DNA of 64,000 bases. It comes from Brevibacillus laterosporus LMG 15441. GTDB taxonomy: Bacteria; Bacillota; Bacilli; Brevibacillales; Brevibacillaceae. Under the pieces are notes generated by a model, which saw only the letters and a program-made list of their open reading frames with translations, was not told the origin of the DNA and made no database searches. The first letter of the stretch is position 1. Each line of letters starts with the position of its first letter. The stretch is from positions 4,128,501-4,192,500 of the forward strand of contig NZ_CP007806.1 in assembly GCF_000219535.2 (NCBI RefSeq), read 5' to 3'. The position numbers and the translations under genes were made by a program. Below, piece by piece: positions 12,725 through 62,160 of this stretch.

Positions 12725-13090
12725 GTGCAACTTGAATGTAACACTCTAGTAGGTATGATCCAGCCATTGTGGTATGTAGAAAAGACGCTTTTAGAGCAAG
12801 GTTTTCATCGGAGCAAGAGCCAAGATTCACCCACCTATAACGCAAGGATCTACGATTCATCAACAGGGATGACCTATAATCTCCAGATTCCCACCCGCCA
12901 TACAGTCCCCAAGGAATGTGAAAACGAGGAAACGATAAAAATTGGTTCCCCCTATTTAAAATTGAAGACGGCCTTACGAACATCCCAAGAAGATCTCTTG
13001 ATTCCCCGGGCAATAAAGGCGGCAGCGGAACATAAATTAGCTGAAATCGCCGATTATTTAAGCAAACCTCATCAACAAACTGGTAAATAA
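12725..13090 (+). CDS. YugN-like family protein
   Basis: 121 aa, GTG start with AAGGAGGG seven bases upstream. The pattern LVGMIQPLWYVEKTLLEQGF, a central beta region, IKIGSPYLKLKTAL and a C-terminal helix with PRAIKAAAEHKLAEI resembles the YugN-like family of Bacillus, which has no known function. A longer open frame on the opposite strand (12675-13133) lacks a ribosome site and protein-like sequence and is taken as a shadow. Confidence 0.7.
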   Translation: MQLECNTLVGMIQPLWYVEKTLLEQGFHRSKSQDSPTYNARIYDSSTGMTYNLQIPTRHTVPKECENEETIKIGSPYLKLKTALRTSQEDLLIPRAIKAAAEHKLAEIADYLSKPHQQTGK

Positions 13091-13464
13091 GGCATTCAAC
13101 CAGCTCTTTTATCATAACATAAACGAATTTCACTCTACATAGGCGGGGTGATTTTTAGCACATTTCACATCTATTTTAGCAAGCAAATATGTATCCATTT
13201 TGAAGTAATATACCAAATTGATTTCCTACGAAAGAATACTCAAGCCTTCCCTGTGGATAAAAGACCCGTCCAGTCTCCAGAAAGTCATACGAAGTACCTA
13301 GGTAGACTTATTTTGTATGGTAATCTTCCTTTTCACAAATCTGTAGGTAACCTCTTTCATTTCTTACACAGTTCAGGTATGCAATTGACCCTATCTGTAG
13401 GTAAATAGATTCTAACCGTTCGTTTTCGAATAATAGCTCCTTTATAAAGCTGAAGTCGACAATA
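13091..13464. other. gene-free stretch with a short direct repeat
   Basis: No supported gene. ATCTGTAGGTAA occurs twice, near 13339 and 13395, in an otherwise featureless region. An 86-codon frame at 13148 has no useful ribosome site. Confidence 0.4.
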
Positions 13465-52748: not shown

Positions 52749-52823
52749 CGCCATCCCCTCCTCTCTTCTCTATACCCTTATATGTAGTCCGTTAAAACCA
52801 GATCAGTGTCATCGAAAAACAGC

Positions 52824-52855
52824 AAAAAATCTGACTCTCGTGTAGAGAATCAGAC
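52824..52855 (-). terminator. terminator of the HExxH-protein gene
   Basis: TCTGATTCTC and GAGAGTCAGA stem, then TTTTTTG on the minus strand. Confidence 0.85.
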
Positions 52856-52875
52856 GATATGCAGCTATCCTTCCT

Positions 52876-54387
52876 CTAATTCGGTTCTAAAACATAAGAA
52901 TATGGCACATGTAAAAAGGAAAGTAAACGATTTTGCCCCTCTTCCTCCTGAACCATTTGAAGAATTTCGCTGATCTCCTTTTGGACAGACTCATACCGAA
53001 GTTCGTGTTGCTGCTCTGATTCCGCATTCGTTTCATACTCCATTATCCAACCTGCTACTTGCTTTGCTAAGGGGAAAAGGGCCTTCTGAATTTTCGTATA
53101 GCTCATTGATAATTGGTGCTGATTTTGTTCGAAAAGCTGTTCAGAGCGCTGTTCCAAATATCCACGAATCTCCGCCAAGCGAGACAGTAATTCTCTTACT
53201 TTCCATAGTTGCTTATGCTGCTCTCGTTGCTTTGAATCTAGAAGTGGGAACGGATCGCTGGATAGTAGGGCTTGTAAGTCTGGCCACGGCTTTTTCTGAA
53301 GTGATTCCTCCAGCTTTTTCATGCAATACGCATCAGCAGGAAGCAGTTCTACCGTTTCTCTGAAGGCAGGTAAGGTATTTCGCGCATAGCTTTTCACTCC
53401 CCAATCGCTATGAGCTTGCAGGGCTTTCACAAAAGAAAAACAATGTGGATCTACTAATTCCAGTTCTCGCTCGCTTACCTCATGAGTAGACAAAATTGTT
53501 TGTTTGACCGTGTTATCTGGTATCTGAGAATGTCCTTCCCCCAATTGCATTCCCCTCTTCACATAAGTCCGCAATGTATCACCTGTCAAAGAGGAATCCT
53601 CATTTCCTTGATAAAGCTGGATACGGAAGGCGGCAAATTCTTCAAAGCCCTGTAGATTCCCGTATCCATCATCAATAACATGCAAATCTGCCTGTACTTC
53701 CATTAGCTCACTTAGTACCTGCTCTTCTAATGCGTAGATACATCCCTCGATGTGAGTCCAATAGCTTCTGCATTCCGCCTCTGAACCCAATACCCTTTGA
53801 TAGACATCATGAAATAAGAGGATATGAGCAATTTCATGAAAATAATTTTGAAACGGAAACTTGAGATTTTCCCCCCGGAGATAGGAGCCTGCATTCTGAT
53901 AGATTTTCCCGTGCTCAGGACGAAACAGTGTAGGTAAGGTGGAATCCACATCTAAAAAGAGTTCAATGCCCGCATTATAGCTGTTAGCCCATATAGCAAG
54001 GTAAGTTGGACTTAGCAGGAGGGCTATAGAATGGTTGGTAATTTGTACAGGTAGATTAAAGTGAAGACCATTCGTCTCTTCCTGCAAGGATAACCACGTC
54101 ATCCCTACTGCCAAAGCCTGATACAACGCAAATTCACCCTGTGCAACCGAATGTCTCGCATAAAGCTGTAACTGTCTAAGGCAATTCGTGACACCTTCTG
54201 CTTCATATGTATATTGTTGTTGAAACTGTTCAAGGCCCTCTACAAAATCCTCGTGTTCAATCGTCAAAAATACATTAATTCCATCTACCCAGAAGTCCGA
54301 TCCTATTTTCGACTCCAACCATTCATCCGTCTGATGTGCTAGCTTACGTAATTCCTCATAACGCTGTAGCATGTGAGGGGAATTCAT
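52876..54387 (-). CDS. HExxH-motif (zincin-like) protein of a putative small-peptide cassette
   Basis: 503 aa, no signal peptide or membrane helix, so cytoplasmic. About residues 186-192 read FHEIAHILLFHD, a zinc- or iron-binding HExxH. About 35 residues later ELMEVQADLHVIDDGYG could supply a third acidic ligand, as in gluzincin peptidases. The C-terminal 150 residues are helical and Glu/Gln-rich. The family is not recognised with certainty. Candidates are a metallopeptidase that processes the two small peptides encoded just upstream, or a peptide-modifying enzyme of the HExxH type found in RiPP loci. ATG at 54387 with AAGGGATAGG. The gene follows the peptide genes after a hairpin that probably sets its lower expression. 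Confidence 0.7.
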   Translation of the reverse strand: MNSPHMLQRYEELRKLAHQTDEWLESKIGSDFWVDGINVFLTIEHEDFVEGLEQFQQQYTYEAEGVTNCLRQLQLYARHSVAQGEFALYQALAVGMTWLSLQEETNGLHFNLPVQITNHSIALLLSPTYLAIWANSYNAGIELFLDVDSTLPTLFRPEHGKIYQNAGSYLRGENLKFPFQNYFHEIAHILLFHDVYQRVLGSEAECRSYWTHIEGCIYALEEQVLSELMEVQADLHVIDDGYGNLQGFEEFAAFRIQLYQGNEDSSLTGDTLRTYVKRGMQLGEGHSQIPDNTVKQTILSTHEVSERELELVDPHCFSFVKALQAHSDWGVKSYARNTLPAFRETVELLPADAYCMKKLEESLQKKPWPDLQALLSSDPFPLLDSKQREQHKQLWKVRELLSRLAEIRGYLEQRSEQLFEQNQHQLSMSYTKIQKALFPLAKQVAGWIMEYETNAESEQQHELRYESVQKEISEILQMVQEEEGQNRLLSFLHVPYSYVLEPN

Positions 54388-54435
54388 TTTATCCTATCCC
54401 TTCTTCAATTTGATAGAAATGCTTTCGTCCGATAA

Positions 54436-54473
54436 CAAAACAAGAGCACGCGTCAAAACCATACGTGCTCTTG
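54436..54473 (-). terminator. hairpin between the peptide genes and the HExxH gene
   Basis: CAAGAGCACG and CGTGCTCTTG form a perfect 10-base stem, then TTTTGTTAT on the minus strand. Its place suggests partial termination, giving abundant peptide mRNA and little enzyme mRNA. Confidence 0.75.
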
Positions 54474-54482
54474 CCTTACACA

Positions 54483-54578
54483 TTAAAGCTTACAAACTCC
54501 GGTAATAATTGGATGTGCCATCCCTTTAAGTTCATCTACTTTTTCATTGTTGACCGTAATTTTAACAACTTTTTTCAC
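54483..54578 (-). CDS. 31-aa peptide 2 (putative precursor)
   Basis: 31 codons, GTG start with AAAGGAGGG eight bases upstream. Begins MKKVVKITVNNEKVDELKG and ends MAHPIITGVCKL. It has the same length and same MKKVVK opening as peptide 1, and a Val-Cys pair close to the end, so the two are paralogues. No signal peptide. The charged front half followed by a hydrophobic Cys-containing back half is compatible with leader and core parts of a ribosomal peptide; this is an inference. Not recognised as a known family. Confidence 0.65.
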   Translation of the reverse strand: MKKVVKITVNNEKVDELKGMAHPIITGVCKL

Positions 54579-54632
54579 AGCAAAACCCTCCTTTACGTTG
54601 AAAGTTCATTTTACTTTAAAAAAAGTACTACT

Positions 54633-54728
54633 TTACAAGCAAACATCAACAACTACACGCCACATTAACTCTTTCATTTGCTTTACATTCTTGTTATCCG
54701 AGAGTTCTACTTTTACTACTTTTTTCAT
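54633..54728 (-). CDS. 31-aa peptide 1 (putative precursor)
   Basis: 31 codons, ATG start with AAGGAGGATG at good spacing. Begins MKKVVKVELSDNKNVKQ and ends MKELMWRVVVDVCL. Paralogous to peptide 2 (shared MKKVVK, equal length, Val-Cys near the end). Both precede the HExxH gene on the same strand. A sigma-A-like promoter with an overlapping inverted repeat lies directly upstream. Function unknown. Confidence 0.65.
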   Translation of the reverse strand: MKKVVKVELSDNKNVKQMKELMWRVVVDVCL

Positions 54729-54752
54729 TATTTCATCCTCCTTATAACCAGA

Positions 54753-54780
54753 TTTATATGATAGGAGTGATAACTATCAA
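54753..54780 (-). promoter_or_regulatory. promoter of the peptide cassette with inverted repeat
   Basis: On the minus strand TTGATA (-35), 16 bases, TATAAA (-10). TGATAG and CTATCA (54759-54764 and 54774-54779) form an inverted repeat within the spacer, placed where a repressor would bind. Confidence 0.55.
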
Positions 54781-55066
54781 TACATATATTATGATAGATA
54801 ATTCTGAACATTTCAATAATATTACATTTTTTTTATATTATACTAGCTTTGGCAGACGAATTACATCCAGTAACATATATAGAGACGAAGGTATGGAAAT
54901 GTTTCGAGAACAGCTATTACATACAAATAAGCATGGAAATAGGCCAATGAAAATAAAAACGGAGCGATAGAAGGACAAATTCCTGTCTACTACTCCGGCT
55001 TATCATGCTTTTTACTTGCGTTTTTGTCTGTATGTTGCCTTACCCGGCAGTTTTGCTCCTCATGCT

Positions 55067-55978
55067 CTACCGTTTTTGTTCATTCATCGCTTGCAGGGCC
55101 AAATAATAAGCCCCTTTTGAAGAACAAGTCTCGTCTATAACAAATACGGGGTCTGGTATCGCATTTTTTACCTCTTCGTAAAACGCCTCTTGCACAAGCG
55201 CAATTTTGGTCAAGACACTGCCCTTTAAAGCAATGGAAACAGGTGATTCAAACCTGAATTTATGGTACAAACGGATCGTTATTTGAGCCAGATGCTCTCC
55301 CGCCCTTTGTAGAATTCGTTGAGCATTTGGTTCACCAGCTTCCGCTTCTTTCACAACTAAGGGGGTTAGGGCTGCTATTTTATCCTTTGAAGAAGAATAG
55401 ACAAAGTCTTTGATCTGTGCTGTCTTTTGGATTTTCAAATATTCGACTAGCCTCTGGCCTAATGAGCTGGATTCAAATCCACACTCTTCCTCTAGGATTA
55501 ATTGACGCAGAGCTTCGATTCCAATCCAATATCCACTACCTTCGTCACCTAGTAGATGCCCCCATCCTCCCGTCATTAAGCTTTGACCTTGATGTACTCC
55601 AAGCGCTACCGCTCCCGTACCTGCGATGGTCAAAATGCCATCTTGCCCTTGCAAGCATGCCGCATGAGCAATTCGAGCGTCATTTGTGATCATGAGAGGT
55701 ATTCCAAAACGCTCTTGTAGACTCGTTTCCACTGCTTCTCGATGTGTTCCGCTCTGAATACCGGCTAGCCCCAAAAATAAATAGGCACATTCACAATCGT
55801 CTACGATTGCACTCTGACATTGTTCAATGGCTTTTATGATATGTGCGATAGCTGTCTCTCTATGCACTAGAACATTACCATATCCGCTTTCTGCCCTAGC
55901 AAGCTCTGCTCCTTGAAAATTGTAGGCTACCGCTATTGTTTTCGTTCCCCCGCCATCAACTCCAATGATATAGGCCAC
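55067..55978 (-). CDS. N-acetylglucosamine kinase, BadF/BadG family (MurK-like)
   Basis: 303 aa. ASKHA-fold sugar kinase: IIGVDGGGTKTIAVAY (phosphate 1), ITNDARIAHAACL, TIAGTGAVALGV (phosphate 2), GGWGHLLGDEGSGYWIG and a final VSIALKGSVLT. The family phosphorylates GlcNAc, and in Clostridium (MurK) also MurNAc, at C6 with ATP. It is the last gene of the cell-wall-sugar cluster, where it would rescue free GlcNAc released by MupG. GTG start at 55978 with AAGGTGAG. No obvious terminator follows. Confidence 0.85.
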   Translation of the reverse strand: MAYIIGVDGGGTKTIAVAYNFQGAELARAESGYGNVLVHRETAIAHIIKAIEQCQSAIVDDCECAYLFLGLAGIQSGTHREAVETSLQERFGIPLMITNDARIAHAACLQGQDGILTIAGTGAVALGVHQGQSLMTGGWGHLLGDEGSGYWIGIEALRQLILEEECGFESSSLGQRLVEYLKIQKTAQIKDFVYSSSKDKIAALTPLVVKEAEAGEPNAQRILQRAGEHLAQITIRLYHKFRFESPVSIALKGSVLTKIALVQEAFYEEVKNAIPDPVFVIDETCSSKGAYYLALQAMNEQKR

Positions 55979-55997
55979 TTTTCTTCACTCACCTTAC

Positions 55998-57086
55998 TTA
56001 CGCTTTTTCAACAAACGCAAATTTTCCCCATGGCTGTAATTGATCCAATAAGAAAATTTCTTCTTCCGCAATACGACCAACCACATTGGTCTTCCCTGAA
56101 TTCTCCATATCCTGCAAAGCTAGTTGCAATTCTCCTTTGTACTGCCCATATAGATTGTTTTCAATTAAAATATCTCCACGGCGGATATGCGGTGTATTGG
56201 ATGGTGGAAAATCCTCCTGCTTGTATTTCACGCGAGATTGTGTGGAACGAATTAGGTAATCGGACACGTCCCCGCGATAGAAATGTGGCTCTTCTACTAC
56301 AATCTTTTTCTCAAGAGGCGTAATGCTGTCATGCAACTGGACCCTAAATGTTAATTTATGAGGATTCACTTCGCTTACTTCCCGTAGCTCTGATTCTGAT
56401 GCATAAGCATTTGCGATAATGATATCGTCAATCAGTCCCATTGAATACAGGTGCTTTACCTGTGTAGCGATAGGAAGCGTACGGTGCATTTCCAGTGAGC
56501 AAAGCCCCTCAGTGACTGGCCATGGACCAAATGTAGCTGCCATCGAAGTAACAAACGCTGCTGTTCGAATTCCTTTTTCTTTAAATTGGCGGCTACAAGC
56601 TTCAAAATGCTCCAATGACAAGCCTGAATAGCGATGCGGATAAAAATTATGTGAACCAAGTATATGATCTACTTGAGGCTGGTACGTCATAATATTGTCA
56701 ATATACTTTGTTCCGCTGCTCATATTTAATTCAATTTTTAACCCATACGGATTATAGGTCATCATCGCTTCCTCATGACCGGTAAATCCCATATCAAGAC
56801 GAATGCCATAAGCCCCTAGACGATGAAAAAAAGATAGATCATCATAGGAAATGCCCAATTTACCAAAAACACGCGGTGCTATATCCACGATGACTTGCAT
56901 ACCTAGGCTATTGGCGAAATCAATGGTTTCTCTAAATTCCTGCACAATTGTCTCAGCATCCCCTTCAACAGACAATAGGCAAGTAAAAATCCGTGTAAAG
57001 CCATATTGATGCGCTAATGCAATATACGCTTTGTCCTTCTCGACTGTACTATGCTCCGGGTAAATAGAGATACCTAGCTGATGCAT
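55998..57086 (-). CDS. mupG: 6-phospho-N-acetylmuramidase MupG (DUF871)
   Basis: 362 aa. TIM-barrel plus C-terminal cyclophilin-like domain of the DUF871/MupG family. LGISIYPEHSTVEKDKAYI at the N-terminus, RLDMGFTGHEEAMMTYNPYG and ILGSHNFYPHRYSGLSLEHF are family hallmarks; the C-terminal domain starts near 240. The S. aureus enzyme cleaves MurNAc-6-phosphate-GlcNAc to MurNAc-6P and GlcNAc in the cytoplasm. Linked genes here (PTS, murQ, GlcNAc kinase) handle exactly its substrate and products. ATG with AAAGGAGGG. 17 bases after the IIA gene. Confidence 0.9.
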   Translation of the reverse strand: MHQLGISIYPEHSTVEKDKAYIALAHQYGFTRIFTCLLSVEGDAETIVQEFRETIDFANSLGMQVIVDIAPRVFGKLGISYDDLSFFHRLGAYGIRLDMGFTGHEEAMMTYNPYGLKIELNMSSGTKYIDNIMTYQPQVDHILGSHNFYPHRYSGLSLEHFEACSRQFKEKGIRTAAFVTSMAATFGPWPVTEGLCSLEMHRTLPIATQVKHLYSMGLIDDIIIANAYASESELREVSEVNPHKLTFRVQLHDSITPLEKKIVVEEPHFYRGDVSDYLIRSTQSRVKYKQEDFPPSNTPHIRRGDILIENNLYGQYKGELQLALQDMENSGKTNVVGRIAEEEIFLLDQLQPWGKFAFVEKA

Positions 57087-57103
57087 ATCAAACCCTCCTT
57101 TGT

Positions 57104-57451
57104 CTATTTTGAGGTTTCTGCTTTTACTTTTTGTAAAATACGAATCATATGCTCAATCAGCTTTTGCTCACTCATTGAGGTCATAAGATGGTCTTGTGCA
57201 TGAATCATTAGCAGTGTTTTCTCCGCAGGTGTGCCGTTTAGTTCAGCTTGAATTAAATCCGTTTGTGTGTGGTGAGCAAGTGTTAATTCTTCCTGCGCCT
57301 GCTTCATAAGCTCAGCAGCTTTTTCAAAGTTATACTCTTCGGCTGCTGACAAGGCTTCAAAAGCAAGACCACGAGCATTTCCACTATGGACAATAATTTC
57401 AAAAATGACCGTTTCATTGTTATTGACTTCGTTGTTCGTTTCGTTTTGCAT
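57104..57451 (-). CDS. PTS lactose/cellobiose-type IIA component
   Basis: 115 aa, three-helix IIA of the lactose/chitobiose family. HSGNARGLAFEALSAAEEYN at the N-terminus and MIHAQDHLMTSM with the phosphorylated His. It passes phosphate from HPr to the IIB encoded at 61855-62160. ATG with GGGAGTGG. Separated from IIB/IIC by three genes, but on the same strand within the cluster. Confidence 0.92.
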   Translation of the reverse strand: MQNETNNEVNNNETVIFEIIVHSGNARGLAFEALSAAEEYNFEKAAELMKQAQEELTLAHHTQTDLIQAELNGTPAEKTLLMIHAQDHLMTSMSEQKLIEHMIRILQKVKAETSK

Positions 57452-57488
57452 GCTGATCCACTCCCATTCATATCATGATTCCTCTTCT

Positions 57489-58643
57489 TTACACACCTCT
57501 AGGAGGATACGTTACATTCCCCAAAATAACAGGCTCCCGAGCTCCTGTAGCAGTTGGCACATTACTTGGCAGACGGTGCAACGTTTCATGGGCCAATAAA
57601 GCAAATGCAACTGCTTCCTTAGCTTCGGACGACAATCCGACATCTTCCTGTGTGATAACCCTGCATGTATTCCCCAACTGTTGCTGTAGCATAGAGAGTA
57701 GCGTCTTGTTATAGCTACCGCCACCCCCAATGATCACCTCATCCACCTGCAATGTGGGAAAAATATAATTTTTGCAATGATAAGCAATCGAGCTAGCTGT
57801 AAACATCGTCATGGTAGCAAGTAAATCGTATGGGGATAGATGAGTATTTTCACGTATGATTTTCTCAACAAACTGCTTACCAAATAGCTCCCTACCCGTG
57901 GATTTAGGCGGTTGTAGCTGCATATATTCGATACTCATGCATTGTGTAAGCAAAGCCTCATCTACTACTCCTTGAGCCGCCCATTTTCCATCCTGATCAT
58001 AAGCTGTATCGAATAGAACTCTACACAGCTCGTCGATTATCATGTTACCAGGACCTGTATCAAAGGCATACACATCCTGTAACTGAGCTGCCTTAGGAAT
58101 GACGGTTACATTGCCGATCCCACCAATGTTTTGCAACAGCCGTGACTTTTCCTGTTCTCGGTACATGATCAGCTCGGTGTAGGGGACCAGAGGAGCTCCC
58201 TGTCCTCCTGCAGCCATGTCCATGGTGCGAAAATTGGAAATGACAGTTGTGTTGGTACGATAGGCAATTACTGCAGGCTCCCCGATCTGCAAAGTGGATG
58301 CGACATACGCTCCCTCTGACTGAGGCTGATGATAAATCGTTTGACCATGAGAACCAATGACAGAAATATTGGCAAAATCAAGCTGATTTTGTTTACAAAT
58401 GGCTTCTACAGCGTCAGCAAATAATTCTCCGAGTTTAAAGTTCAGGCTACAAATGACCTGTACGTTCGAGCGTTCAAGTGACAAGCTGTCCATAATTTCG
58501 TCGCGCACAGACTGAGGAAATGGAAGCGTCATAAAATCAAGTAACTTAACCTGTGAATCATAGCCCGTTCCCTGAATATCGACCAGTGCTACATCAATGC
58601 CATCCAAAGAGGTACCTGACATAAGTCCGATTACATAAGCCAT
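57489..58643 (-). CDS. anmK: anhydro-N-acetylmuramic acid kinase AnmK
   Basis: 384 aa. Converts 1,6-anhydroMurNAc plus ATP to MurNAc-6-phosphate. Seen: [19 protein letters not shown] at the N-terminus, [47 protein letters not shown] and a final [20 protein letters not shown]. Full length for the family. ATG two bases after the stop of the GH4 gene, hence co-transcribed. Feeds MurQ. Confidence 0.95.
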
Positions 58644-58645
58644 AA

Positions 58646-59977
58646 TTAAGCTTGCTCCTCTTTAAAAAATTGAGGCAGATAATCACGATGTGCCTCTAAC
58701 AAATCATCCAACACAGCCTTAGCTTTTTCATCACTTGGCACTAAAGGATTAATCGTCAATGCCAGCAAGGCTTTCTCATAAGAACCAGTCACCGCCGCCT
58801 CTGCACCTACCCGCTCAAACGATTTGATCTGTTGAACAAGTCCATTAATAGCTGTAGGTAACTCGCCTACTGTGATTGGTTTTGGCCCTTCCTTCGTAAC
58901 CATGCAATTTACTTCGATTGCTGAATCATGAGGAATCCCCTGAATGGTTCCATTGTTTCTAACATTTAAAGTCTGAATATCATTTGTTCCATTATACAGA
59001 GAGGAGATAAGACTACATGCGGCATCACTATAATACGCACCGCCGCGTTTTTCTAACTGTGGAGGTTTGATTTGTAGCTGTTCATCTCGGTATAGTTCAA
59101 AGAGATCGTCTTCCAATCGTTTTACCACCTCTGCTCGCGTGGTTCCTGATTCGAATGCTTTTAATTCCTCAGCTAAAATATCCTGTGTCTTATAGTAGTA
59201 CCGATGATATGGGCATGGGATTACGCCTAATGCTTGCAGGAAAGTTGGCTCCCAAGGCATTGGAGCGATATTGCGCATAGATAATTGTTTCTCTGGGTCA
59301 GCCAGCATGTGCAGGACCTGCTTGGTTACATCCTCCCCATCAACTGTAGCGCGAAGTCCATATACAAGATGGTTAAGTCCGGCAAAATCAATGTGAAGTC
59401 GTCCTACATCAATATCAAGCATCTTTGCTATCGTCATCTTTGTGGTAATCGGTACGTTACAAATACCAATGACCTTAGAATGCTTACCATAACGCAATAG
59501 CGCTTCGGTTACCATGCCAGCCGGATTGGTAAAGTTAATCAGCCATGCATTCGGGCATAGCTCTTGCATATCCTCGGCAATTTGCAGCAGGACAGGTATC
59601 GTACGCAGTCCCTTAAATAATCCACCTGCTCCATTGGTTTCCTGACCAATCATTCCATGCATTAATGGAATCCGTTCATCCTTAATCCGCGCTTCCAATA
59701 ATCCAACCCGCATTTGTGTCGTAACAAAATCGGCGTCCCGTAAAGCCTCCCTGCGATCCAATGTTAGATGAATCTCCATCGGTACACCCGCTTTTTTGAC
59801 CATACGTTTAGCTAATTCACCAACAATGTGTAGCTTCTCTCGCCCTTCCTCGATATCTACCAGCCATAATTCACGGATTGGCATCTCATTGTATCTCTTA
59901 AGAAATCCTTCCACCAGCTCCGGAGTATAGCTAGAGCCTCCTCCGATCGTTACAATCTTAATCCCTTTTTTACTCAT
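58646..59977 (-). CDS. 6-phospho-beta-glucosidase, glycoside hydrolase family 4
   Basis: 443 aa. NAD+- and Mn2+-dependent GH4 enzyme: [19 protein letters not shown] (NAD site), [20 protein letters not shown], the [15 protein letters not shown] catalytic region, [18 protein letters not shown] and GICNVP (metal-binding Cys). The family hydrolyses 6-phospho-beta-glycosides such as cellobiose-6P or chitobiose-6P. In this context a 6-phosphorylated amino-sugar disaccharide is plausible. The ATG at 59977 has AGAGGAGAAAG; the frame is open to 60052 without a ribosome site. Confidence 0.9.
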
Positions 59978-60054
59978 CTTGCTTTCTCCTCTCTGTCCCA
60001 TTTCTCCTATACTTGTCCGCAGATTTCTAGTCTTTTGAGGAAATAATGGCAAGC

Positions 60055-60342
60055 TTAGTACAAGTACACGAGATAATAACTAGCCGCCGTACAAACCACT
60101 AATGAACCGATAATAAATGTGATAGCCTGCATATGATTTTTATATTTGCCTTCAAAGTAAAGCATAACGATACTGACGCCTGCGCCTCCAGCCAAGCTAT
60201 TTACTAGAAATAGACTCGCTTGCTGGGATAGTCCCAACCACATCAGAAACGGGGTAAGCAGCAAATTTAAGCCCACCAAAAACGTAAAAAAGAAAAAAGC
60301 GCTTTTCCAACGAAATTTAATAAGCTTGTTGCTCTCCTCCAT
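60055..60342 (-). CDS. small membrane protein of the sugar cluster, 95 aa
   Basis: Three predicted membrane helices (AFFFFTFLVGLNLLLTPF; ASLFLVNSLAGGAGVSIVML; AITFIIGSLVVCTAASYYLV) and a short charged N-terminus (MEESNKLIKFRWK). The ATG at 60342 follows GAGGGGAGG; the frame is open 45 bases upstream without a ribosome site. It lies between the PTS IIC gene and the GH4 gene, 77 bases from the GH4 start. Not recognised; its constant place in the operon suggests a link to transport of cell-wall sugars. Confidence 0.7.
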   Translation of the reverse strand: MEESNKLIKFRWKSAFFFFTFLVGLNLLLTPFLMWLGLSQQASLFLVNSLAGGAGVSIVMLYFEGKYKNHMQAITFIIGSLVVCTAASYYLVYLY

Positions 60343-60397
60343 TGTCCATTCCTCCCCTCTATGCAAAACAACACTATCAGATAACAAGAACGTAATG

Positions 60398-60415
60398 TGA
60401 GTAGAATGCTACTCA
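60398..60415. repeat. perfect 18-base palindrome upstream of the small membrane gene
   Basis: TGAGTAGAATGCTACTCA: 7-base arms around AATG. It lies between the IIC terminator and the small membrane gene, where an internal operator or promoter element could sit. Confidence 0.45.
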
Positions 60416-60436
60416 TCTACCATGTATGCTTCTCCA

Positions 60437-60487
60437 ACAAAAGAGACGTGGACAAAGAATGCCATAAGCTCCCTTTGCTCCACGTCC
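60437..60487 (-). terminator. terminator-like hairpin after PTS IIC
   Basis: GACGTGGA, CAAAG and their complements CTTTG, CCACGTC pair around an 18-base loop, then TCTTTTGTT on the minus strand. It would reduce transcription of the downstream half of the cluster. Confidence 0.65.
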
Positions 60488-60512
60488 CCCCTTTCTTTAT
60501 CTTACATCATGT

Positions 60513-61790
60513 TTACATTGTCGCTGTTTCCTCAGCTTCTCTTTCTTGGTCCACTACTTTTTTGTCATACATTTTAAAGAATGGAATGTAGATCAGGAAG
60601 GAAATCAGGATATTGATTACGACCAGAATAATGGCTCTCCAATCCCCGCCCGTAGCCAGATACGCTCCAATCGGTGCTGGCAGTGTCCACGGTACCATAA
60701 TGTAAGTCGGATTCACCAAGCCAAGCACAGTGGCATAATACGACAAGGAAGCCGTAATAACAGGAACGATAACGAAAGGTATAATCAGCACTGGATTTAA
60801 CACAATCGGCATCCCGAAAATCACGGGTTCATTAATATTGAAGATCCCCGGTACAATGACAGTTTTTCCTAATGTCTTGTGATAGTTTGATTTGGCAAAT
60901 AACAGCATACATAGGACAAGACCAAGTGTCGCACCTGATCCTCCAACCCAAACATACCATTGAAAGAATGTTTCAGGTGCCACATGCGGAATCGCTTGAC
61001 CAGCGGCTACTGCCTCCGCATTTTTAGCCAAATACACTTCCCATAGTGGACGAGCAATCGTACCTACAATGGAAACCCCATGGATACCAAATGCCCAGAA
61101 GAACGTAATTAAAATAACCGGAATTAGTATACCAGGCAAGCTATCTCCTGCTTTTACTAACGGTGCAATAATTTTATCAACAAGTCCATGTAAATCAATT
61201 TTAAAGACAACCGTAATGATTGTCATGATCAGAAGCACGATTGCTACCGGGATCAATGCTTCAAAAGAACGTAGCAGGGAAGGCGGCACCTGATCTGGAA
61301 GCTTGATCATCAAATTGCGCTGTTTACAGAAGCGCAATACCTCTACAGCAAAAATAGAAGCAAGCATCGCTACGAACAAGCCGTGTCCACCTAGATTGGT
61401 CATTGGAAGAACAAAGCCTGCTCCATCCATCACTTTAGGTGCAATCGTCATGAGAAATGCCATGATTGCTAATTGTGAACCTGCCAAAGGATCAAGATTA
61501 TAGCTCTTCGCCAGATTATGCCCTATCCCAAAGGAAATGTAGAGTGACATGATAAACATCGTCATACGGTATGGAATAAGAATTTGACCCGCATTTTCCT
61601 TTGCCCACATTGTGATTGCCCAATCTTGTGGCAACGGTGGGAAAGCAATAATTAAGAAGAAACTTCCTACGATAATAAACGGTAAAGCGGAGATAACCCC
61701 GTCACGGATTGCACGTAAATGTCGTTGTTCAGCGATACGAGCAATAGGACCTGACAAGTGTTTATCTAAAAATTGTACAAAAGCGTCCAT
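60513..61790 (-). CDS. PTS cellobiose/chitobiose-type IIC permease
   Basis: 425 aa, about ten membrane helices. The lactose/diacetylchitobiose-family IIC layout is seen: HLRAIRDGVISALPFIIVGS near the N-terminus, the substrate loop with GIHGVSIVGTIARPLW, and IFNINEPVIFGMPIVLNP with the essential Glu near 300. It carries a beta-linked disaccharide inward while IIB phosphorylates it. The ATG at 61790 has GGGGGAAG; an upstream extension to 61823 has no ribosome site. Together with IIA and IIB it makes a complete transporter; by context the substrate is an amino-sugar disaccharide. Confidence 0.92.
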   Translation of the reverse strand: MDAFVQFLDKHLSGPIARIAEQRHLRAIRDGVISALPFIIVGSFFLIIAFPPLPQDWAITMWAKENAGQILIPYRMTMFIMSLYISFGIGHNLAKSYNLDPLAGSQLAIMAFLMTIAPKVMDGAGFVLPMTNLGGHGLFVAMLASIFAVEVLRFCKQRNLMIKLPDQVPPSLLRSFEALIPVAIVLLIMTIITVVFKIDLHGLVDKIIAPLVKAGDSLPGILIPVILITFFWAFGIHGVSIVGTIARPLWEVYLAKNAEAVAAGQAIPHVAPETFFQWYVWVGGSGATLGLVLCMLLFAKSNYHKTLGKTVIVPGIFNINEPVIFGMPIVLNPVLIIPFVIVPVITASLSYYATVLGLVNPTYIMVPWTLPAPIGAYLATGGDWRAIILVVINILISFLIYIPFFKMYDKKVVDQEREAEETATM

Positions 61791-61854
61791 TGTCTTACTT
61801 CCCCCTTTACGCCCTGCGGACATCCTCTTTACAAGAAATGTTCTAGGTGTCTGA

Positions 61855-62160
61855 TTACTTTGCTACTTCCTGTACTTTTTTAAATAAGGTTGCTCCACCA
61901 AGTGGTGTGTAGCCCTGAGGTGGAATCAGTTCGCACGGCACTCCTGCTGCATCCGCTTCTTGTTTTAACTGTTCAAAACGATGACGTACCTGAGGAGCTA
62001 CCATGGCTACATTCCAGCCATTTTTCACTTCCTCAGCAAATTCTTGTGTACTAACAGCCTTCACTTCCATTTCGACCCCATGCTTATCTGCTTCTTTTTT
62101 AAGAGCGTTTACCACAATAGCACTGGACATCCCTGCGGAACATACGAATAATACCTTCAT
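61855..62160 (-). CDS. PTS cellobiose/chitobiose-type IIB component
   Basis: 101 aa. VLFVCSAGMSSAIVVNALKK carries the phosphorylated Cys (residue 7). VAMVAPQVRHRFEQLK and a final TPLGGATLFKKVQE match the lactose/cellobiose IIB fold. ATG with AGGAGG. It lies 64 bases upstream of the IIC start. Confidence 0.93.
   Translation of the reverse strand: MKVLFVCSAGMSSAIVVNALKKEADKHGVEMEVKAVSTQEFAEEVKNGWNVAMVAPQVRHRFEQLKQEADAAGVPCELIPPQGYTPLGGATLFKKVQEVAK

Follow-up and report, generated by a model that had tools for sequence, protein, structure and literature searches.

A recurrent cassette of small leader-bearing peptides and an orphan HExxH protein in Brevibacillus: a candidate peptide-maturation system

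We analyzed a cassette of three genes in a 64,000-nucleotide stretch of Brevibacillus laterosporus LMG 15441 (contig NZ_CP007806.1, positions 4,128,501 to 4,192,500; hereafter the window), in which two 31-residue peptides, A and B, precede a 503-residue protein with an HExxH motif. The genes probably form a self-contained leader/core peptide-maturation cassette, in which a zincin-like enzyme processes the cores of the two peptides. This reading draws on the association of the genes across genomes, on a conserved leader followed by a variable core, on repeated cores in the longer precursors of a second bacterial family, on purifying selection, and on an HExxH motif and a downstream Glu that are invariant among the aligned enzymes. 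The enzyme itself is an orphan within the searched libraries.

Organization of the cassette

Both peptide genes and the enzyme gene are located on the minus strand, in the order promoter, peptide A, peptide B, hairpin, enzyme. The cassette comprises the following features (window coordinates):

54788-54816, minus strand, sigma-A-type promoter TTGAAA-17-CATAAT, matching 10 of 12 consensus positions (consensus match only)
54737-54743, minus strand, Shine-Dalgarno sequence of peptide A, AAGGAGG, a good ribosome site
54633-54728, minus strand, peptide A gene (W-type), ATG start, product MKKVVKVELSDNKNVKQMKELMWRVVVDVCL
54586-54594, minus strand, Shine-Dalgarno sequence of peptide B, AAAGGAGGG, a good ribosome site
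54483-54578, minus strand, peptide B gene (HPI-type), GTG start, product (M)KKVVKITVNNEKVDELKGMAHPIITGVCKL
54441-54473, minus strand, terminator-like hairpin CAAGAGCACG/CGTGCTCTTG in the interval between peptides and enzyme, a perfect 10-bp inverted repeat (10/10 complementary)
52876-54387, minus strand, enzyme gene, 503 residues, an orphan HExxH protein and putative peptide-processing metalloenzyme
53824-53838, minus strand, HEIAH codons (residues 184-188), with H184, E185 and H188 invariant in 22/22 aligned sequences
53707-53709, minus strand, codon of E227, 39 residues past H188, invariant in 22/22 and a candidate third metal ligand
52829-52855, minus strand, terminator-like hairpin 3' of the enzyme gene, 11 pairs with a T-rich tail

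The initial annotation had described two 31-residue MKKVVK peptides with good Shine-Dalgarno sites, a promoter common to both, and a 503-residue HExxH gene behind them. The open reading frames (ORFs), both ribosome sites and the position of HEIAH are confirmed, and the common promoter was located as a match to the sigma-A consensus; a similar match, TTGAAA-18-TATAAT, again by consensus only, occupies the equivalent position in one locus of the brevis group (L044; loci are designated L and genomes G). The hairpin between peptides and enzyme had been proposed as a terminator. Its repeat is perfect, the RNA fold of the 96-nt surroundings has z = -3.4, and a hairpin is kept between peptides and enzyme in 12/12 orthologous loci, as judged by eye, but it is absent from the terminator scan's list for the window, while the L044 counterpart is listed as terminator-like. 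An inverted repeat had also been assigned to the promoter; it exists as TGATAG...CTATCA with 6-nt arms (54779-54759), but it is a weak element situated in the 5' leader, seen in the laterosporus group (three loci) but missing from the brevis group. No Rfam elements were found in 52750-55070.

Recurrence in Brevibacillus

The enzyme was identified in 12 of the 39 genomes searched of its own family, including its own genome, and at all 12 orthologous Brevibacillus loci both peptides are found upstream of it in the same order. Nine of these loci constitute the brevis group, including B. formosus, B. porteri and B. fortis, and three the laterosporus group; in one genome of the same genus (G004) the enzyme is 95% identical. 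Genomes represented in two collections were counted once (L003/L016, L005/L018, L007/L017, L011/L019). A separate contig search for the enzyme matched Brevibacillus alone, at four loci.

Within the laterosporus group, blastn comparison with the window gives alignment throughout, over 9.5 kb (L016) and 4.5 kb (L004). For the brevis group the comparison covered four of nine loci, B. formosus and B. porteri among them; here alignment is confined to the peptide A region and the enzyme gene and does not extend into the flanking DNA. Thus the conserved unit consists of the promoter, peptide A, peptide B, the hairpin and the enzyme gene.

Anatomy and constraint of the peptides

Peptide A can be divided into a putative leader MKKVVKVELSDNKNVKQMK and core ELMWRVVVDVCL, and peptide B into a putative leader MKKVVKITVNNEKVDELK and core GMAHPIITGVCKL. 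The leader pattern consists of MKKVVK, a polar stretch, and then mostly (V/I)xx(E/D/Q)xK, so that the front ~19 residues are conserved, while the tails are type-specific among precursors and, for peptide B, also variable. By our own typing, the cores fall into a W type (WRVVVDVCL; WIGRVSEL), an HPI/HIT type (HPIMTLACKK; HITILIEF), and further types (...NPYVWMFDNDCPW; ...TPDVFYGGTSRCW; ILVIFNGSACF). The peptides have no match to known precursor families.

We calculated the ratio of nonsynonymous to synonymous differences per site (pN/pS) for both peptides; since the pairs are not independent, the values are descriptive. For peptide A the ratio is 0.11 in the laterosporus group (3 pairs), 0.05 in the brevis group (36 pairs) and 0.32 between the groups (27 pairs), whereas for peptide B it is 0.49 and 0.59 within the groups. 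The value of 0.05 for peptide A, together with the recurrence of both peptides at all 12 orthologous loci, argues that the peptide ORFs are not chance frames. The variation of peptide B in the brevis group is unevenly distributed, affecting 3 of 19 residues in the leader and 9 of 13 in the core. As a separate observation, the core codons of peptide A (54633-54665; TGG CGY GTA GTT GTT GAT ...) are by eye almost identical in DNA between the laterosporus and brevis groups, while the leader codons diverge; an additional nucleotide-level constraint on the core codons is possible.

A second family and multi-core precursors

A profile search at the level of the class matched 20 of 398 genomes. After three weak matches, treated as chance, had been dropped (G019, G148 and G400; E 0.001-0.006), 17 genomes were retained, 12 from the family of B. 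laterosporus and five from a second family, f36. The latter is represented in our sample by seven genomes, and its enzyme set comprises seven intact members and one degenerate homolog (L043). In a 398-genome sample of the phylum the enzyme was found in its own genome only, and no relatives were found in plasmids, phages or viral contigs.

All seven intact f36 enzymes are accompanied by one to four MKKVVK-type peptide genes within about 0.75 kb, with MKQVVK, MKKMVK, MKKEIKK and MKKVTK as variants of the start; in G168 (C12), one such gene follows the enzyme, at a distance of about 0.1 kb. The order of a W-type peptide followed by an H-type (HPI/HIT) peptide, by the same typing, is common to Brevibacillus and three g84 genomes of f36. 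The recurrence of MKKVVK-type peptides upstream of enzyme homologs, proposed initially as a check, is therefore borne out at 12/12 Brevibacillus orthologs, and peptides also adjoin the enzyme at 7/7 intact f36 loci. The degenerate L043 homolog has lost the HExxH motif (HHSMA) plus about 29 residues preceding it, and no MKKVVK-type peptide was found at its locus, which has thus lost both.

In the class, 88 of the 398 genomes contain the strict MKKVVK start string, enzyme carriers included. We read 34 of the matches away from the enzyme singly, and they look unlike homologous precursors. Within f36, the nearest in size among these 34 is a 33-codon frame in G138 (L124), which is not preceded by a Shine-Dalgarno sequence and was judged to be no precursor.

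Three g84 genomes of f36 have longer precursors of 70, 70 and 103 residues, built from Lys-bounded PxGI units. The multi-core arrangement is clearest in the 103-residue precursor of G178 (VKEARPIGIVPIEFVKEINPIGIPAEFTAAKELRPIGI...), which has six PIGI units and 117 similar 6-mer pairs, where 1000 tail shuffles gave at most 20. The 70-residue precursors of G208 and G188 have two and three PxGI units, respectively. Since Lys precedes the units, and Glu plus a hydrophobic residue ends the last unit in two of the three multi-core forms as well as several single cores, Lys is a likely unit boundary. A 147-codon frame is open opposite the multi-core precursor gene (L039:10552-10995, plus strand) and represents a trap for gene callers.

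Multi-core precursors are known among ribosomally synthesized and post-translationally modified peptides (RiPPs), for example in cyanobactins, graspetides and fungal dikaritins. The f36 precursors resemble them in having a single leader, several repeated cores and short linkers. In contrast to those systems, no ATP-grasp, subtilisin, YcaO or radical SAM protein was recognized by eye at the cassettes, whose neighbors were partly family-searched, and the orphan HExxH protein is the only gene besides the peptides that is common to all loci.

The HExxH enzyme

We aligned 22 enzyme sequences (alignment A3, with the degenerate L043 homolog left out). H184, E185, H188 and E227 are invariant in all 22, and the conserved clusters are NHSxALLLSP, FRPE, HExxH, E214 and E227. 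All 22 enzymes fall short of the curated cut-offs of Pfam and NCBIfam (best E 0.018 and 0.029, to unrelated names). Searches with four members gave a best E of 0.051 over a short stretch in PADLOC and of 0.0063 over 36 residues in PHROGs, both set aside, and there is no convincing match among PDB sequences. These results agree with the initial view that no standard maturation enzyme is recognizable, and no known RiPP enzyme is matched over threshold by the protein or its 21 relatives. A match to an unrelated housekeeping family, named at the outset as a refuting observation, was not found in convincing form.

A structure predicted with AF2 from the 22 sequences has a mean predicted local distance difference test (pLDDT) score of 85.5 and a predicted template-modeling score (pTM) of 0.88 in the best of five models (mean pLDDT 85.5, 84.7, 77.9, 66.9 and 56.3); an earlier model from 15 sequences was poor (pLDDT 49.8) and was not used. 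The best model has a helical N-terminal part, four short strands within residues 114-178, the HExxH helix at 179-192, a helix at 203-231 that holds E214 and E227, and a helical C-terminal part; pLDDT is below 50 for most of the conserved FRPE loop (residues 153-160). The top row in BFVD is an uncharacterized Tupanvirus protein (E 0.25, probability 0.80, TM 0.34), and the VIA-align rows consist largely of helical bundles, with a best Z of 8.9 over 108 residues, which may reflect a common arrangement only. Among the listed fold rows, the M32-type carboxypeptidase BsuCP (3hq2; E 3.5, TM 0.12 only) is the one that we take to be an HExxH peptidase, and no alphaKG-HExxH structure was noticed; neither observation serves to rule anything out.

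Gluzincin metallopeptidases belong to clan MA(E). The enzyme shares with them an HExxH motif plus a downstream invariant Glu and, in the best model, an HExxH helix following short strands. It differs from them in the lack of a convincing match in Pfam, NCBIfam or PDB, or of a significant fold match, and in its large additional helical parts at both ends. The best reading of the protein is a cytoplasmic zincin-like metalloenzyme with HExxH and Glu227 as the putative metal site.

Three B. laterosporus-type genomes (G000, G002 and G004) encode a second enzyme, about 38% identical to the first and with HExxH intact (L002, L015 and L014). At these three loci the upstream region contains only a decayed peptide gene (L002:2983-3260) with KKVVK codons and a sequence resembling a ribosome-binding site, the start codon having been lost, and a remnant of a hairpin arm; an intact adjacent peptide is present at none of the three. 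The ratio of nonsynonymous to synonymous substitution rates (dN/dS) is 0.16-0.24 for the paralog and 0.10-0.13 for the main enzyme, and the paralog evolves under constraint and sits on a long branch. Possibly it serves peptides A and B in trans; alternatively, it may have acquired a new role.

Proposed maturation route and alternatives

In the reading that we prefer, peptides A and B would be precursors whose leader of ~19 residues (MKKVVK...xx(E/D/Q)xK) recruits the 503-residue protein, and the product would be the C-terminal core of roughly 8-16 residues. The shared promoter would provide abundant precursor mRNA, and the hairpin would pass only some transcripts into the enzyme gene. Given this frame, we modestly favor cleavage by the enzyme on the C-terminal side of Lys, at the end of the leader and, in multi-core precursors, at every linker, over other reactions; modification of core residues is our second choice, and on the best reading the enzyme is more likely hydrolytic than oxidative. 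The product, if exported, would serve as a signal or an antimicrobial.

The RiPP- or pheromone-type plan suggested initially has gained from the recurrence at 12/12 and 7/7 loci, the leader/core split and the multi-core forms. A conserved leader, a distinct core and an adjacent enzyme are the architecture of a RiPP locus, with an enzyme that would be dedicated to the peptides. The broader proposition, a new class of ribosomal peptides defined by an orphan HExxH enzyme of an unseen fold, an MKKVVK leader, and single or multiple cores, tied in one lineage to RNPP regulators, is in our judgment close to evenly balanced, tipping slightly toward the negative. In the titles and abstract beginnings retrieved on HExxH proteins and RiPPs, RiPPs of Brevibacillus and Tumebacillus, multicore RiPPs of Bacillales, and pheromone maturation, the cassette is undescribed, and the strings MKKVVK, WRVVVDVCL and PIGIPAEF do not occur in the literature searched.

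Several findings weigh against the preferred reading. The three HExxH-intact paralogs with peptide remnants only indicate that the enzyme can be maintained in the absence of a neighboring peptide gene, and thus HExxH homologs without peptides, named at the outset as a refuting observation, do exist in a mild form, but the genomes concerned (at L002, L014 and L015) each also carry a complete cassette. Foldseek searches of PDB and BFVD gave no match to the model at E <= 0.001. The repeat excess of the 70-residue precursors is marginal (5 similar pairs against a shuffle maximum of 8, and 9 against 8). Peptide A is near-constant among the brevis-group loci, which is not the behavior of a fast-evolving core. 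Finally, no exporter or second processing gene was found in the Brevibacillus cassette.

Among the alternatives, a pheromone system is a serious contender, although it falls short of probable. The peptides would be trimmed intracellularly, exported and re-imported onto RNPP-type regulators, a scheme that fits either chemistry of the enzyme. An RNPP_C/HTH/TPR regulator (PF18768) is located 0.5 kb upstream of the peptide genes in G168 (L038:1806-2717), and in G178 another RNPP_C regulator (L039:5206-6135) and the enzyme lie about 2.9 kb apart; these genomes have two and one RNPP_C matches, respectively, and by our own post hoc estimate, with two-sided 5-kb windows, such proximity would arise by chance in about 1% and 0.2% of cases. 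In three g84 genomes, the enzyme is also followed by permease genes of the Opp type:

L039:6208-8827, L040:12802-16142 and L041:6719-9300, Opp/Dpp-type permease pairs downstream of the enzyme in g84 genomes

In G178 and G188 the pair follows the enzyme directly; in G208 it is set apart from the enzyme by two genes on the opposite strand. We regard these regulators and permeases of f36 as hints at signaling. However, such a regulator adjoins only two of the seven intact f36 loci and none of the other five, no RNPP_C match was found in the three Brevibacillus genomes searched (G000, G020 and G023), and in G168 an opposite-strand ORF of 105 codons separates the regulator from the peptides. Genomes of f36 carry this permease subfamily in multiple copies, and genomes without the enzyme have it too. 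The cassette resembles the RRNPP systems (Rap/Rgg/NprR/PlcR) in its short linear precursors in Bacilli, with RNPP_C proteins near two f36 loci, and differs from them in that its constant partner is a putative metalloenzyme and not a TPR receptor, and in that no signal peptide is recognized by eye in the precursors.

Modification of core residues by the enzyme, with a general protease freeing the core, appears unlikely. The enzyme would then be an oxygenase or other tailoring enzyme, acting for example on the Pro of HPI, PIGI, PYV or PDI. This alternative has precedents in the alphaKG-HExxH family (TIGR04267/IPR026337; ChlBH, BpmH, PflC/PosC and PesO), whose members are HExxH enzymes encoded next to small leader-bearing precursors. 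They are reported to act on the core of RiPP precursors, which they hydroxylate or cut: an enzyme from Peribacillus hydroxylates Pro (PMC13060819), and PflC/PosC is able to cut the precursor backbone as well (PMC12636437). By our reading, a Pro is located 4-5 residues past the leader Lys in many cores, but the W-type cores have none. In a further published case, TmcP, the HExxH protease of TMcin, is a membrane S2P-type protein by its published description (PMC13252029).

Membership of the enzyme in the alphaKG-HExxH family was considered and rejected. We found TIGR04267 matches in 15 of the 398 class genomes (17 loci), and aligned 11 Bacilli proteins from these loci (alignment A4). The hhalign comparison with these 11 proteins spans 38 columns only (probability 10%, E 0.003), so that the profile kinship ends at the HExxH helix. 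E295, four residues before HExxH, and H340, in an RPxxxxxH context, are invariant in A4 and putative ligands, and both are missing from the 22 enzymes. TIGR04267 gives no match to any of the 22 at E up to 10, and none in the B. laterosporus genome. Since HExxH enzymes of RiPP pathways are reported to hydroxylate and even cut their substrates, our enzyme may still work like them although membership fails. TIGR04267 proteins are also encoded away from the cassette in G003 and G030, of the same family as B. laterosporus, and in G178 (L078, L079 and L080).

A role of the peptides as inhibitors or small subunits of the enzyme, and not as substrates, is improbable; the close gene association fits this idea too, but for such roles it would be unusual to find several tails of different kinds beside one enzyme, or Lys-bounded repeats. 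Least probable of all is that the small ORFs are leader or arrest peptides that attenuate the enzyme gene in cis and are otherwise idle: short ORFs and a conserved hairpin before the enzyme gene, and the near-constant C-terminus of peptide A in Brevibacillus, would suit it, but multi-core forms of 70-103 residues do not, nor do loci with as many as four different peptides, the G168 C12 peptide gene lying downstream of its enzyme, or the variable C-terminus of peptide B.

If the enzyme does act on the peptides, the cassette would represent a minimal maturation system of two parts, a ~30-residue precursor and a single enzyme, that falls outside all enzyme families of the libraries searched, and it suggests an undescribed route to small bioactive or signaling peptides. 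Its single- and multi-core substrates would form a natural collection, its leader could be engineered as a new tag, and its peptides would be candidates for signaling or antimicrobial activity in Brevibacillus, a genus employed in biocontrol. It also provides a concrete, putative substrate-enzyme pairing for an enzyme family without a function in the searched libraries.

Neighboring genes

Between the two permease pairs of G188, the region L041:2882-6628 encodes an ABC transporter, a MauE/DoxX protein and two small flanking ORFs, one of them of 188 residues with no Pfam match; the transporter and the MauE/DoxX protein could be an export and redox set. At L040, positions 12802-13410 are occupied by a shorter permease-like ORF without a Pfam match. 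The Brevibacillus neighbors examined look unrelated to the cassette (MgtC, a BadF-type kinase and DUF2306). In the window, positions 55067-62160 contain what looks like an ordinary amino-sugar/beta-glucoside set of the phosphotransferase system (PTS) kind, with a BadF/ROK-type kinase identified by Pfam and AnmK-like, 6-phospho-glucosidase-like and PTS IIA/IIB/IIC-like genes recognized by eye.

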